From: Candidatus Aadella gelida
GTDB taxonomy: Bacteria > Omnitrophota > Gorgyraeia > Tantalellales > Tantalellaceae
Reading direction: 5' to 3'
Assembly (NCBI GenBank): GCA_030765205.1
Contig: JAVCDB010000110.1
Coordinates: 1-34,751 of the forward strand
Length of the DNA: 34,751 nt
In this document: piece after piece, positions 1,881-33,501 of the stretch
Layout of the letters: each line of letters opens with the position of its first letter
Position numbering within the stretch: the first letter of the stretch is position 1
Translations under genes and position numbers: made by a program
Notes under the pieces: model-generated
Databases searched by the model: none
The model's input: only the letters and a program-made list of their open reading frames with translations
Told to the model about the DNA's origin: nothing

Positions 1881-1980
1881 GGTTCTAGGTTAATAGGTTT
1901 TAGGTGTTAGGTTCCAGGTTTTAGGTTATGGAGTCTTAACCCTGACACCTATAACCTAACACCTAAAACCTAAAACCTGC
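1881..1980. repeat. Paired inverted heptad array (GGTTTTA / TAAAACC)
   Basis: Bases 1881-1930 hold GGTTTTA-type heptads (GGTTCTA, GGTGTTA, GGTTCCA and so on). Bases 1945-1980 hold the complementary type (AACCTAA, CACCTAA). The arms can pair in the transcript as a long imperfect hairpin between ppdK and the sigma factor gene. The same word family recurs at 19903-19926 and 33427-33501. Confidence 0.85.
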
Positions 1981-6128: not shown

Positions 6129-6884
6129 TTAGGTTATTATCTTCTCTAACTCCAGCTGTCTTAAAAATTTTGTCGATTTTATTGGTCTATTTATATGATA
6201 CTTTATGAACTCTCTCAAAACTATCTCTGCTTCTTTCCCTACTTCTTTAGAAACCTTTACCGCAGCTGATTTCTCAATACTGGTCCTGCCTATCTTCTTC
6301 ATGAAGTTTATAGTCCCCATCGAGACTTTTATCCCTGTCTTAACGCAAGATGAGCAAACTGCTCCCCCGCTTTTAACGTTAAACCGAGAAACGCTTTCCA
6401 TACTAACGCCGCATTCGGAGCATTCTTCAAGTTGGGGCTCAAGCCCTATGGCTTCTAATATTTTGATCTCAAATATTCTTCCCGTTCGTTTCGCGCTGGC
6501 TTTGGTAGCTAACATTCCGAGACTGCCGGAGAAAATATCATACAATTTTTTATCAGGACAATAATCATCAGTCACTATGTCTATTAATTCTATAAAATAA
6601 TCAGCGTATGTCAACCTTTCAATTTCTTTTCTTATGGGAAGATAAGTTTCAATTGCTCTACATCCGCTTATAAGATCCAATCCCTTTTTCTTTTTTTTAT
6701 AAAATAGTATCTCGCATTTGGTAAATCTCTCCAGATCTCCCGCAAATTGAGGGCTAGGATTCCTTACGCCTTTAATAACTCCGGTTACTTTACCAAAATC
6801 CCGCGTATAAACCACAAGAATATAACTGGTCTCTCTCAGTTCATACTTTTTTAAGATTATCCCTTCAGTCTTTAGTACAGCCAT
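6129..6884 (-). CDS. recO: DNA repair protein RecO
   Basis: Recombination mediator that, with RecR, loads RecA on SSB-coated single strands and anneals complementary DNA. The 251 residues match the family: an N-terminal OB fold (1-80, starting MAVLKTEGIILKKYELRE), a helical middle, and a zinc site with paired cysteines C155-x2-C158 and C177-x2-C180. The start ATG (6882-6884) sits directly against a heptad repeat array (6891-6953) and no Shine-Dalgarno sequence is visible. It may be translated from a leaderless or weakly initiated mRNA. It lies 44 bases before glyS. The 234-base gap on the upstream side makes a promoter there likely, though no convincing one was recognised. Confidence 0.93.
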   Translation of the reverse strand: MAVLKTEGIILKKYELRETSYILVVYTRDFGKVTGVIKGVRNPSPQFAGDLERFTKCEILFYKKKKKGLDLISGCRAIETYLPIRKEIERLTYADYFIELIDIVTDDYCPDKKLYDIFSGSLGMLATKASAKRTGRIFEIKILEAIGLEPQLEECSECGVSMESVSRFNVKSGGAVCSSCVKTGIKVSMGTINFMKKIGRTSIEKSAAVKVSKEVGKEAEIVLREFIKYHINRPIKSTKFLRQLELEKIIT

Positions 6885-6890
6885 GGTTTC

Positions 6891-6953
6891 GTGATCCGTG
6901 AACAGTGAACAGTAAACAGTTATCTGTTGACCATAGACAATTGACTATTGACT
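6891..6953. repeat. Heptad array upstream of recO (GTGAACA and ATTGACT units)
   Basis: Two word types follow each other with 7-base spacing: GTGAACA/GTAAACA and then GACAATT/GACTATT. The second type is the inverse of TCTATAGTCAATGGTCTA at about 7046-7065, so the two may pair across the recO leader. Related words recur at 30719-30777. Confidence 0.75.
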
Positions 6954-7069
6954 TTTAAAAGTCTCTTAATGAAAAATATTGGTCCATAGCCTACAGTCAT
7001 TTCTCTCTTATTTCTACTATTCAATCCCAACATCGGTCCTTCCCTGTCTATAGTCAATGGTCTAATGAC

Positions 7070-7129
7070 ATCCTTCGTCCTTCATCCCTCGTCCTTCATC
7101 TCTCTACTCTTCTATCCTCTACTCTCTGA
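7070..7129. repeat. Heptad array running into the DUF502 gene stop codon
   Basis: Pyrimidine-rich 7-base units (TCCTTCG, TCCTTCA, TCCCTCG, then ACTCTCT types). On the minus strand the units encode the end of the DUF502 protein (EIRE then TAG), so the last sense codons and the stop lie inside the array. Confidence 0.75.
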
Positions 7130-7784: not shown

Positions 7785-8513
7785 TCAGGAAAACAGCTGA
7801 AAAACAAGAACTGCTGTAACAATTCCCAGCAAACCGCCTAAAAGAACTTGCGACAAAGTATGTATTCCCTCGGTCAGGCGGCTTTTAGCAATAAGTATAG
7901 CCAAAAGAAGCACCAATATACTTACCAATACATTTTCCGTAAAAAGCGATACTACTGTCCAGATAGCGAACGCCACAGCGGAATGACCGCTAGGCATTCC
8001 TCCTCTTAAAAGAGGAGTGTCCTTCCTGACGATCTTCGACAATAGAACTAAGCCCACTACCCCTAAAAGAATTATAAATGTCACGTGCCAAGATGACTGT
8101 CTTATCAGGGAGAACGCACCGTCAAAAGAACTCACCGCACGTTTTACGATTAGTATATATCCTGTAACAATGGCATTCACCGCACTCACGAATACGGCCC
8201 CTGCGGCTATATCTTTTATTACTTTAGCCATAGGATGGTACTTATTATCGCTTATAAGATTTATCGTGTATTCAATGGCTGTATTGAACATTTCAGCAAC
8301 CAATACGAAAGTTACCGCGAAACATAAGATCATAAACTCCGATCCGGTAACATTGAAATATATAGCCGCTATCAATGCTAGAAAACCTACGAGAAAATGT
8401 AACCTCATATTGCGTTCTTTCTGCAAAGTGTGAACTACTCCTTCTAAAGCATTGTTCACGCTTGCAAAAAAACTTTTACCGTAAATTCTTTTTGACTCTC
8501 TGGAAGATTTCAT
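7785..8513 (-). CDS. DgkA-type lipid kinase fused to PAP2 phosphatase domain
   Basis: Likely acts on lipid alcohol or lipid phosphate in the inner membrane, such as undecaprenol/undecaprenyl phosphate or diacylglycerol. The substrate is not readable from sequence. The N-terminal half (about 15-125) is a prokaryotic diacylglycerol/undecaprenol kinase domain with the signature EMFNTAIE (74-81), then AKVIKDIAAGAV (96-107) and three helices. The C-terminal half (about 140-242) is PAP2-like: MPSGHSA (173-179) and SRLTEGIH (211-218). The Asp that usually follows the last His at three or four residues is replaced (TLSQV). Kinase and phosphatase in one chain could cycle a lipid carrier. It overlaps ybeY by 38 bases. 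Confidence 0.9.
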   Translation of the reverse strand: MKSSRESKRIYGKSFFASVNNALEGVVHTLQKERNMRLHFLVGFLALIAAIYFNVTGSEFMILCFAVTFVLVAEMFNTAIEYTINLISDNKYHPMAKVIKDIAAGAVFVSAVNAIVTGYILIVKRAVSSFDGAFSLIRQSSWHVTFIILLGVVGLVLLSKIVRKDTPLLRGGMPSGHSAVAFAIWTVVSLFTENVLVSILVLLLAILIAKSRLTEGIHTLSQVLLGGLLGIVTAVLVFQLFS

Positions 8514-8940
8514 TTTCTTTAGCTTTCATTAGATCTCTCTTTTCGAGACTGGTATCTTCATATCCTAATAGATGTAATACCCCATGTATAACATAAAGCA
8601 CCGTTTCTTCTAAAAACGATGTCCCATAGATCTTCGCATTATGTTTTGCTCTGTCAGTCGATATGGCAATGTCCCCCAGGAATTCGTGCTTCGTGCTTCG
8701 CGCTTCGTGATTCGAAACAATGCTTTCCCCTGCCGGGAACGCTATAACATCAGTTGCTTTGTCCTTTTTAAAATACTTGCGGTTGTATACGCGGATTCTC
8801 TGGCTGCTCATGAACGATATATTAAGTTCACAATTTTTTTTCTTTAAGCCGGCCAAGGATTCTATTGCCGCTCTATTGGTCTTCTTTAGGTCTCTTCTTA
8901 TTCTTTTGTTGAGATTTTCGTTGTTTATCCGTATCGTCAT
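8476..8940 (-). CDS. ybeY: Endoribonuclease YbeY (rRNA maturation factor)
   Basis: Metal-dependent endoribonuclease needed for 16S rRNA 3' maturation and ribosome quality control. The 154 residues have normal length. The metal site HGVLHLLGYED (119-129) has two of the three usual histidines (H119, H123). The third ligand position is Asp129 where many homologues have His, a substitution also known in other phyla such as Bacteroidota. DVIAFPAG (64-71) and LGDIAIS (88-94) are conserved. Between them residues 75-86 (VSNHEARSTKHE) are encoded by five heptad units (8682-8716), an in-frame copy of the intergenic repeat type. It overlaps pgpH by 68 bases and dgkA-PAP2 by 38, showing tight coupling. 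phoH, its usual partner, is two genes upstream. Confidence 0.94.
   Translation of the reverse strand: MTIRINNENLNKRIRRDLKKTNRAAIESLAGLKKKNCELNISFMSSQRIRVYNRKYFKKDKATDVIAFPAGESIVSNHEARSTKHEFLGDIAISTDRAKHNAKIYGTSFLEETVLYVIHGVLHLLGYEDTSLEKRDLMKAKENEIFQRVKKNLR
8682..8716. repeat. In-frame heptad array inside ybeY
   Basis: Five consecutive 7-base units: ATTCGTG, CTTCGTG, CTTCGCG, CTTCGTG, ATTCGAA. They encode residues 75-86 of YbeY on the minus strand, in the variable loop between two conserved motifs. This is the only array in the window lying well inside a coding region. Confidence 0.85.
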
Positions 8941-14461: not shown

Positions 14462-14497
14462 GAGTAGTAGCCGGGGTTTAAACCCCGGCTACTACTC
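14462..14497. repeat. Perfect 36-bp palindrome centred on TTTAAA
   Basis: Every base from 14462 to 14497 is self-complementary around the TTT/AAA centre. The half site reads GAGTAGTAGCCGGGGTTT. The same core with one base change occurs at 30661-30686, so it is a dispersed element rather than a local terminator. There is no T-run after it. It sits in the hisS-aspS gap close to the hisS stop. Confidence 0.9.
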
Positions 14498-19777: not shown

Positions 19778-19883
19778 TTGTCATCCCGAGTGAGCGCCAG
19801 CGAATTGAGGGATCTTTCTTCTTCTCATTAAGATCCCTCCACTCACTACCTGCCGGCAGGCAGGCGTTCGGTCGGGATGACAA
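19778..19883. repeat. TTGTCATCCCGA-ended palindromic element
   Basis: The terminal inverted repeats TTGTCATCCCGA (19778-19789) and TCGGGATGACAA (19872-19883) are perfect over 12 bp. Inside, GAGGGATCT is mirrored by AGATCCCTC, giving a nested hairpin. There is no coding capacity. The same ends and inner block recur at 27793-27909. Similar sequences are known as dispersed non-coding elements in many bacteria, and a MITE-like nature is inferred. Confidence 0.8.
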
Positions 19884-27792: not shown

Positions 27793-27909
27793 TTGTCATC
27801 CCGAGTGACTTCTGCGAAACTTTAGCGAAGCAGAGGAATCGAGGGATCTTTTTTATTTTTACATAGATCCCTCCACTTCCTCATTACATTCGGTCGGTCG
27901 GGATGACAA
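27793..27909. repeat. TTGTCATCCCGA-ended palindromic element, second full copy
   Basis: Ends TTGTCATCCCGA (27793-27804) and TCGGGATGACAA (27898-27909) are the same perfect 12-bp terminal repeats as in the 19778-19883 copy. The inner GAGGGATCT...AGATCCCTCCACTTCC block is shared. The outer spacer differs in length and sequence. Confidence 0.8.
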
Positions 27910-28766: not shown

Positions 28767-28877
28767 CGTATAGAGTATAGCGTATAGAGGGTTAACCGAC
28801 CGATGCTCTAACAAAGGTGGATGGGAAAATAGGGTATCGGTCAATATAACGCTATACGCTATACTCTATACTCTATA
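28767..28877. repeat. Long hairpin built from paired heptad arrays between dapA and dapB
   Basis: The left arm has GTATAGA/GTATAGC heptads (28768-28788). The right arm has CGCTATA twice and CTCTATA twice (28850-28877). Inner GACCGAT and ATCGGTC extend the pairing, giving arms of roughly 35 bases around a loop of about 30. The right arm runs into the TAG stop codon of dapA (28873-28875). It may fold in the mRNA and separate or stabilise the two cistrons. Confidence 0.85.
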
Positions 28878-29739
28878 CCAACTTATACTTCTTAAGTACT
28901 TCTCTTAACTTATCGCTTCCGTCAGACGTCATCTCACACATAGGAAGCCGCCATTCTTCTTTGAGTAGACCCATCATTCCCATAGCTGTTTTCACGGGAA
29001 TTGGATTAGTCTCTATAAACATCGCGCTGCACAAACCCGCTATCTCATAGTGGACCTTACGGCTAAGTTCTTCGTCCCCATTCAGATATGCCTGCGTGAG
29101 TTTGTGAACCTTCTCGGGAATAATGTTAGCAACTACGCTTACAACACCTTTGGCGCCTACCGACATAAATGGTAATGTCAAAGAGTCGTCCCCACTCATT
29201 ACCGTGATGTCGCAAAGAGCCAGAATATCGGTTACCTGCTGAACGCTCCCCCCGGCTTCTTTTATGGCGACTATATTCTCTATTTTATTCAGTCTGGCAA
29301 CCGTCTCGGGCGTAAGCGATATTCCCGTACGTGAAGGCACATTGTAAAGCATTATAGGGACGCCTGATTCTTTAGCTATCTTTTCATAATGCCTGTACTG
29401 CCCTTCCGGCGTAGGCTTGTTATAATACGGAGTTATAACGAGCGCGGCGTCACATCCCGACTTTTTGGCGCTTACAGTAAGCTCTACAGCTTCGGCTGTA
29501 TTGTTCGATCCTGTACCCGCTACTACAGGTATCCTTTTATCCGCTGTTTCAACAGCTATTTTTATCAATCTCTTCTGCTCGGACATATTCATAGTAGCGG
29601 CTTCACCCGTACACCCGCAAGGCACTATACCGTCAGTCCCTTTATCTATATGAAATTCTATGATTTCCCTGAACTTTTTTTCGTCAATTTTTCCGTCTTT
29701 GAACGGAGTAACAAGTGCTACATAAGAACCTTTAAACAT
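28873..29739 (-). CDS. dapA: 4-hydroxy-tetrahydrodipicolinate synthase
   Basis: Condenses pyruvate with aspartate semialdehyde, the entry step of the diaminopimelate pathway. From the ATG at 29737-29739 it has 288 residues. A TTG two codons earlier is rejected because the GGGGG site would then be only two bases away. Visible are CGCTGEA (around 41-47), the catalytic Tyr in MLYNVPSRTG (about 132) and the Schiff-base Lys in NIVAIKEAGG (about 160). dapF lies 49 bases upstream and is probably cotranscribed. The stop codon lies inside a heptad array. Confidence 0.97.
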   Translation of the reverse strand: MFKGSYVALVTPFKDGKIDEKKFREIIEFHIDKGTDGIVPCGCTGEAATMNMSEQKRLIKIAVETADKRIPVVAGTGSNNTAEAVELTVSAKKSGCDAALVITPYYNKPTPEGQYRHYEKIAKESGVPIMLYNVPSRTGISLTPETVARLNKIENIVAIKEAGGSVQQVTDILALCDITVMSGDDSLTLPFMSVGAKGVVSVVANIIPEKVHKLTQAYLNGDEELSRKVHYEIAGLCSAMFIETNPIPVKTAMGMMGLLKEEWRLPMCEMTSDGSDKLREVLKKYKLV

Positions 29740-30622: not shown

Positions 30623-30777
30623 GCTTACTGTTTATTAACTCGACCCTTATTTCCACAACTGTAGCTGGGGTTTAAACCCCAGCTACTGCTTCATTCCCAC
30701 ACCGGTCATTCTCTATCTATAGTCTGTGGTCTATTGTCTACAGTCTTTCTCCGCCATTCACTGCTTACTGTTCACTG
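30623..30777. repeat. Heptad arrays in the lysA-dapF gap
   Basis: Three short arrays: ACTGCTT and ACTGTTT units near 30623-30640; ATAGTCT, GTGGTCT, ATTGTCT and ACAGTCT at 30719-30746; TTCACTG, CTTACTG and TTCACTG at 30757-30777. The last contains the TGA stop codon of lysA (30772-30774). The words match those upstream of recO (6891-6953). A TTTAAA palindrome sits in the middle. Confidence 0.8.
30661..30686. repeat. Perfect 26-bp palindrome centred on TTTAAA
   Basis: The half site GTAGCTGGGGTTT is followed by its exact complement. It shares the GTAGC(C/T)GGGGTTTAAA core with the 36-bp palindrome at 14462-14497. The single difference in the half site is compensated in the other half, so self-complementarity is kept. 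Confidence 0.9.
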
Positions 30778-33426: not shown

Positions 33427-33501
33427 TTCTAGGTTCTAGCTTTTAGGTTCTAGGTTTTGGATTTCCCTAACACCTACAACCTAACACCTATCACCTGTTA
33501 C
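33427..33501. repeat. Paired inverted heptad array between argG and argH
   Basis: Five TTCTAGG/TTTTAGG-type units (33427-33461) and five CTAACAC/CTATCAC-type units (33467-33501) have opposite polarity and can pair. The outermost unit contains the TAA stop codon of argG (33498-33500). The word family is the same as at 1881-1980. Confidence 0.85.

Follow-up and report, generated by a model that had tools for sequence, protein, structure and literature searches.

The window, that is, the whole stretch of 34,751 nucleotides of Candidatus Aadella gelida DNA that was analysed, is contig 31 of an assembly of 1.59 Mb in 113 contigs. It carries dapA and dapB, whose spacer has the minus strand as its sense strand and is occupied by paired arrays of degenerate seven-nucleotide words (heptads). 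The best named relatives of DapA come from Candidatus Omnitrophota MAGs (24 loci). The parts of the locus are as follows:

29745-28873, minus strand: dapA (PF00701)
28852-28878, minus strand: sense 5' arm of the dap cassette, GTATAG[AC] heptads starting inside the dapA stop codon
28830-28850, minus strand: sense 5' half of the core (...TATATTGACCGATACCCTA), its ATTGACCGATR motif pointing with transcription
28811-28829, minus strand: loop of 19 nt, unlike the loop of the cassette copy on contig C63
28798-28810, minus strand: 3' half of the core stem, sense TAGAGCATCGGTC
28768-28789, minus strand: sense 3' arm CTATACGCTATACTCTATAC, with the Shine-Dalgarno-like GGAG of dapB a few bases on
28756-28010, minus strand: dapB (PF01113/PF05173)

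Read in the sense direction, a GTATAGA-GTATAGA-GTATAGC-GTATAGC array, with the dapA stop codon (the TAG in TTGGTATAG) inside its first heptad, is followed by TTATATTGACCGATACCCTA, the loop, TAGAGCATCGGTCGGTTAAC, the 3' array CTCTATACGCTATACTCTATAC and the ribosome-binding region of dapB. The outer arms (28768-28787 and 28852-28871) are complementary at 100% of 20 nt and the inner stem (28798-28810 and 28830-28842) at 85% of 13 nt; a stem search on the spacer returned 42 pairs around the 19-nt loop. The long hairpin that a preliminary description had placed between the two genes is therefore real, and its fold on the sense strand (-47.9 kcal/mol, z -7.80) was equalled by none of 200 shuffles. 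The same description had pointed to three similar sites in the window, two of which, both of one heptad family (F), hold up on folding (1881-1980, z -5.66; 33427-33501, z -3.85), and strong stems between cistrons and a recurrence of paired arrays are both supported; the third, at 391-504, is weak (z -2.70), with 4 of 200 shuffles folding as well and an empty centroid structure. The other paired arrays in the window are:

1881-1980, minus strand: family F paired arrays (AGGTTTT/AGGTGTT), between a PPDK gene and a sigma-70 family gene
33427-33501, minus strand: family F paired arrays, between argG-type and argH-type genes
387-512, strand not assigned: weakly paired arrays of the TTAAGTA / ACTTAAT kind, plus an inner run of CCCTTAA
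6883-7127, minus strand: family A cassette with AGACTAT/GTCAATA arms and a TGACCGATG core, flanked on both sides by heptad runs

A TTCGTGC array at 8683-8714 of the window falls inside a reading frame (8476-8940), so arrays can enter coding sequence.

Folds as stable as that at dap (z down to -7.8) favour a function at the RNA level, the stems being kept by selection for stabilising, ending or insulating the message between one cistron and the next. We consider this unlikely. The plus strand, which is antisense to the dap genes, folds slightly better than the sense strand (-51.8 kcal/mol, z -7.06), and none of the four terminator-like sites found between 27500 and 30000 lies at the hairpin, so that a GC-rich stem with a following U run, the mark of an intrinsic terminator, was not detected there. 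An Rfam search of the window at gathering thresholds returned one tRNA only and no group I intron.

Heptad arrays across the genome and their polarity

Period 7 in the spacers of this genome exceeds chance. Over 292,779 bp, intergenic self-match was 0.321, 0.314 and 0.303 at lags of 7, 14 and 21, while every other lag between 4 and 20 gave 0.261-0.283, and 93 lag-7 arrays were found, compared with 6-27 at seven control lags. Of the spacers in 477,420 bp, arrays were present in 61 of 163 between co-directional genes, 5 of 16 between convergent genes and 4 of 25 between divergent ones (classes resting on heuristic gene calls by a simple longest-ORF rule), a distribution that would suit an RNA-level role. 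Several families of heptads are involved: F (AGGTTTT/AGGTGTT), A (AGACTAT/GACCATT), G (GTATAG[AC], as in the dap arms), AGAGGGT/AGAAGTC, GACGAGG, AGTGAAC and GAATCAC. A universal grammar of GT-containing heptads, considered by eye, was dropped because family A breaks it.

Pairs of neighbouring arrays within 200 bp of each other numbered 81 in 834,843 bp, 30 of them inverted, 13 direct and 38 neither, against 809 in 6000 expected by chance of unlinked arrays. Fourteen related genomes gave 27 inverted and 2 direct neighbours, six of the 14 having none at all. The cassettes are multi-copy and intergenic, their neighbouring arrays are mostly inverted, and relatives have the same architecture made of other heptads.

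Counts of pairs and of oriented motifs, above and below, are not independent, since copies within a family share descent, and binomial p values were left unused except in the statement on G.U pairs below. Polarity was identical in 36 of 36 comparisons of related pairs in the relatives and in 133 of 158 in the A. gelida genome, where the opposite-polarity comparisons listed come mostly from two doubtful pairs. The arm read first was the G-richer one in 48 pairs and the G-poorer one in 8, with one tie; counted by family, the G-richer arm came first in 16 of 17. Near stop codons this G-richness is strong in the A. gelida genome (G>C in 87 arrays, C>G in 13) and not so in the relatives taken singly (G013 11:3, G055 7:8, G002 7:3, G042 2:1, others 8:4). 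The core motif [AG][AT]TGAC[CT]G[AG]T[AG], a pattern derived from the same genome in which its orientation was counted, reads in the sense direction at 35 of the 37 co-directional cases. This ratio of 35:2 could be taken as a sign of selection on the transcript; it is, however, inseparable from replication direction, as just one case opposed the direction of most genes in its stretch, and that case followed its genes.

Relationships between arms and tests of pairing

The preliminary description had seen in the complementarity of two degenerate arrays a hint of either selection for pairing or birth by inverted duplication. Selection for local pairing and local inversion both predict a closer match between an arm and its own partner than between that arm and partners elsewhere. 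In family F (13 loci) own partners scored 18.2 and cross-locus partners 18.4 (p 0.57); this set was read from 19 loci after five had fallen under the score or motif threshold and one duplicate at C62 had been dropped, p being 0.57 or 0.84 depending on which C62 row was removed. Family A, with 15 of its 30 own pairs, gave 16.6 for own and 17.6 for cross-locus partners (p 0.98). Similar results were obtained in two relatives, G013 (8 loci; own/cross 20.2/22.0 and 22.0/24.6, exact p 0.95) and G014 (7 of 10 rows; 16.7 versus 18.9, p 0.99), and the sole set leaning towards own-partner matching was that of G055 (7 pairs; 15.5 versus 14.1, p 0.11). Each of these tests rests on 7-15 loci. Two looser tests in the A. 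gelida genome were nominally positive, one at p 0.024 (12 rows, including one unrelated non-heptad hairpin) and one at p 0.018 (27 rows of heterogeneous chained families), a significance that was lost once family A was cleanly defined.

Likeness among 5' arms (20.6 in F, 19.8 in A) lay above the own-partner scores, and each arm is at least as close to same-side arms at other loci, 5' to 5' and 3' to 3', as it is to its own partner. Within F the two arms also differ in their heptad words (p 0.003, arms swapped at random within loci); we prefer this test to a Fisher p of 2.4e-5, for which the categories had been picked after the counts were seen. Neither selection for local pairing nor a local inverted duplication is supported by these comparisons, in which foreign partners match as well as own ones.

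Substitutions within the stems tell the same way with respect to pairing. On the sense strand of 48 co-directional pairs, 1049 Watson-Crick positions were accompanied by 37 G.U, 38 A.C and 124 transversion mismatches; so few G.U would be expected with p 0.0014 if G.U were in 2:1 excess. A first stem test had given 15 G.U, 20 A.C and 57 transversions. Compensatory change was sought in family A, a related cassette with six near-full-length paralogous copies, the dap copy being one without alignable relatives: among 30 pairs, 15 were invariant, 2 varied on one side, none had changed on both sides and 13 departed from pairing by broken cells alone. The preliminary description had named two observations that would speak against a role in expression, a lack of compensatory changes and transcript coverage passing the sites unaltered, and the first of these is what we see.

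We also considered whether the 5' arm insulates the ribosome-binding site (RBS) downstream. At dap the native 5' arm leaves the site more open than shuffled arms do (0.79 versus 0.61), which is the direction that an RNA-level function would favour. This was not reflected in the 28 rows with a usable start among the 48 co-directional pairs (two loci counted twice), where openness was 0.514 with the native and 0.502 with the shuffled arm and 17 of 28 rows were higher (p 0.33); a general effect is absent, and RBS insulation was rejected. On the grounds of wobble symmetry, cross-locus matching and the absence of compensation, we reject RNA selection as the main explanation of the pairs.

The dap junction in relatives points in the same direction. 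Gene order is stable, dapA standing before dapB in 29 of the 30 loci read, 28 of which are from relatives, and the exception stops at a contig edge. Paired heptads, on the other hand, were found there in only 3 of 28 readable relatives, L010 (GTGCTGA), L026 (GGTTTCA) and L016 (GTCGCTA, by eye), all from the same family as A. gelida and all with heptads other than those of its own dap cassette. Fourteen further members of that family and 11 of another have no paired arrays at the junction, a single array being present in L036, and this absence from most relatives argues against an RNA-level function.

Probable copying and exchange of words, and possible origins

Cassettes and their parts recur at other places in the genome. 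The 19-nt phrase GTATAGAGTATAGCGTATA, the pairing part of the dap arms, is found exactly at four places, namely both dap arms, C6:14578 and C16:29781, and at the latter two no GTATAG array of opposite orientation was seen within the same spacer. The C6 copy also shares with dap the following CGAAACAA(A)GGAG. The dap core recurs in the C63 cassette copy and, combined with F arms, at C62. BLAST of the A. gelida genome with an F query returned 52 rows (with arrays scored on both strands) and with the 186-bp A cassette 73 rows, six of them near full length, that at 6883-7127 included, with 82-94% identity excluding the query itself. Among variable columns of the A copies the core has 15 transitions and 7 transversions and the arms 5 and 11 (Fisher p 0.047, borderline). 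Given these arm transversions, and a number of heptads that varies from copy to copy, the arms appear to change by whole words.

Relatives show a comparable pattern. The L010 cassette at the dap junction is matched by 27 rows within G014, the genome that bears it, and by none within the A. gelida genome, G013, G006 or G012. Matches to GTATAG phrases were obtained in 12 of 56 relatives besides the A. gelida genome, most of all in G020 (22 rows), and a split into lineage-private heptad families is therefore too simple, the words being partly shared. Three of these GTATAG loci were read, and two are paired, without the GACCGAT core.

We suggest that the dap hairpin is probably one copy of a dispersed, non-coding intergenic heptad cassette, and that its complementarity comes from a shared family of words and not from upkeep of the individual pair. 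Such a cassette would consist of two opposite arrays of one heptad family, the G-richer arm first, around a short centre, some families having a conserved TTGACCGATG core. Cassettes and array phrases may spread by copying, through recombination or some mobilising activity, and the arms may then diverge as whole heptads are gained, lost and exchanged, so that complementarity would follow from common family membership without being maintained pair by pair. Mobility is put forward here as an inference, as neither an empty site nor a target duplication was seen. Between co-transcribed genes a cassette would form a long stem in the mRNA, which we take to be a tolerated by-product and not the reason for the sequence.

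A different origin could be birth at each locus, by inverted duplication or template switching, with later decay of the arms. It could account for arms alike at 20 of 20 positions at dap and at 24 of 25 at C62, and for the inverted arrangement in several genomes. The arm likeness at these two sites tells to that extent against the dispersed-cassette reading, as recent local copying would give it too. We hold birth at each locus to be quite unlikely, because foreign partners are matched as well as own ones, the 5' and 3' arms of F differ in their words, the dap phrase is present elsewhere, and the loops of F pairs, like those of G014 pairs, look mutually unrelated.

It is very improbable that a RAYT (Y1) transposase moves the cassettes as REPIN-like elements, intergenic, inverted and multi-copy though they are. 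Three Y1 genes are present in the A. gelida genome, with REP-associated tyrosine transposase as their best NCBIfam match (74-80 bits), but all three proteins stay under the curated cut-off of 80, and no Y1 match was obtained in G014 (81% complete), a genome rich in paired cassettes. Besides, the heptad arms of the dap, F, A and G014 cassettes carry no GTAG tag on reading, and the palindrome flanking the Y1 gene on C37 is a different one, GTAGCCGGGGTTTAAACCCCGGCTAC.

Other repeats were noted alongside these genes. A perfect palindrome, GTAGC[CT]GGGGTTTAAACCCC[AG]GCTAC, is present in 28 copies within 834,843 bp of the A. gelida genome, with window copies at 14467-14492 and 30661-30686, and this GTAGC...GCTAC palindrome lies on both sides of a frame-broken Y1/RAYT-like gene (L220, G000:C37); judged from these sequences, palindrome and gene may form a REP-RAYT-like system in Omnitrophota. 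A second RAYT-like gene (L218, G000:C68:3691-4032) is flanked by GTACCGTTT... and GGGACAC...TTTAAACACAAAAAAGGGG, which recur in other spacers (e.g. L045 8374, L105 start). In the window, GTCATCCCGA...CTCGGGATGAC inverted repeats around GGATCT/AGATCC inner arms (19780-19882 and 27797-27907) are apparently a further dispersed hairpin element.

The boldest birth mechanism left by the data would see the pairs as scars of two-ended repair of a chromosome break, in which both 3' ends were extended by G-richer heptads, much as in telomere addition or through slippage synthesis by some terminal activity, before being joined. Convergent arrays with G first, arms of the same family with independent word order, short unrelated loops and words varying between lineages would all follow, and the polarity of 16 of 17 families, the independence of arms in the family tests and the varied loops agree with this. 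There is as much against it as for it, and we regard it as highly doubtful: Ku was found in 0 of 11 genomes and RVT_1 in neither G014 nor G055, A cassettes have been copied as 186-bp units with a shared core, and the F arms differ in words relative to the genes. The sole RVT_1 match in the A. gelida genome (G000:C106:429-1086) has internal stops.

Among described repeats, the cassettes can be read, by analogy, as kin of the convergent heptamers of Xanthomonas and of a stem in the Nostoc trnL intron. Heptanucleotide STRR repeats are known from cyanobacteria. Like these, and like the TAACTGA repeats of Beggiatoaceae, the arrays here are intergenic tandem heptamers in many copies; the Beggiatoaceae sets are described in an extract of PMC4679880 as direct, with a single inverted one, and as lying mostly just before start codons, unlike the mostly inverted neighbours seen here. 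For Xanthomonas, extracts of PMC4692102 report degenerate 7-nt GGGAATC units that are mostly intergenic, favour aligned ORFs and seldom lie between divergent ones, 70 and 75 instances of a nearby pair of arrays in convergent orientation, and prominent repeats at differing genes in two related species. Tandem degenerate 7-nt units in mainly intergenic positions, convergent pairs and a preference for aligned over divergent ORFs (here from heuristic ORF calls) are all found in our genome, too. In those extracts there is, however, one G-quadruplex-forming unit per organism studied, in contrast to the many families seen here, most without GGG and some with a shared core; on reading, neither the dap unit GTATAG[AC] nor the F unit AGGTTTT contains the GGG tracts of a G4.

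In the P6b stem of the Nostoc trnL intron, as excerpted from PMC4476775, both sides are likewise built of 7-nt motifs, and a similar stem arises from either of two unlike motif classes, which substitute for one another; that stem belongs to a self-splicing group I intron, whereas the present cassettes lie in intergenic spacers. REP/REPIN sequences and GTAG-tagged palindromes share with the cassettes the character of short extragenic inverted repeats in genome-specific families, set between co-directional or convergent genes in the extracts of PMC3116915 and PMC3733652, which show them without heptad arrays; the GTAG tag and the transposase link were not found for our cassettes. A literature search for Omnitrophota together with tandem repeats and intergenic returned nothing, and neither "repeat" nor "intergenic" occurs in the main text of an Omnitrophota survey (PMC10066038).

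Paired heptads as a kind are thus known from Xanthomonas and Nostoc, where they were noted without a mechanism, and what sets the present case apart is its variety of families, a core that is shared and oriented, and the phylum. Complementary degenerate arms do not by themselves show that an RNA stem has been selected. The paired architecture returns, built from unrelated heptads and with its polarity fixed, in several genomes of a distant uncultured phylum, which makes the origin of such pairs testable by strain comparison.
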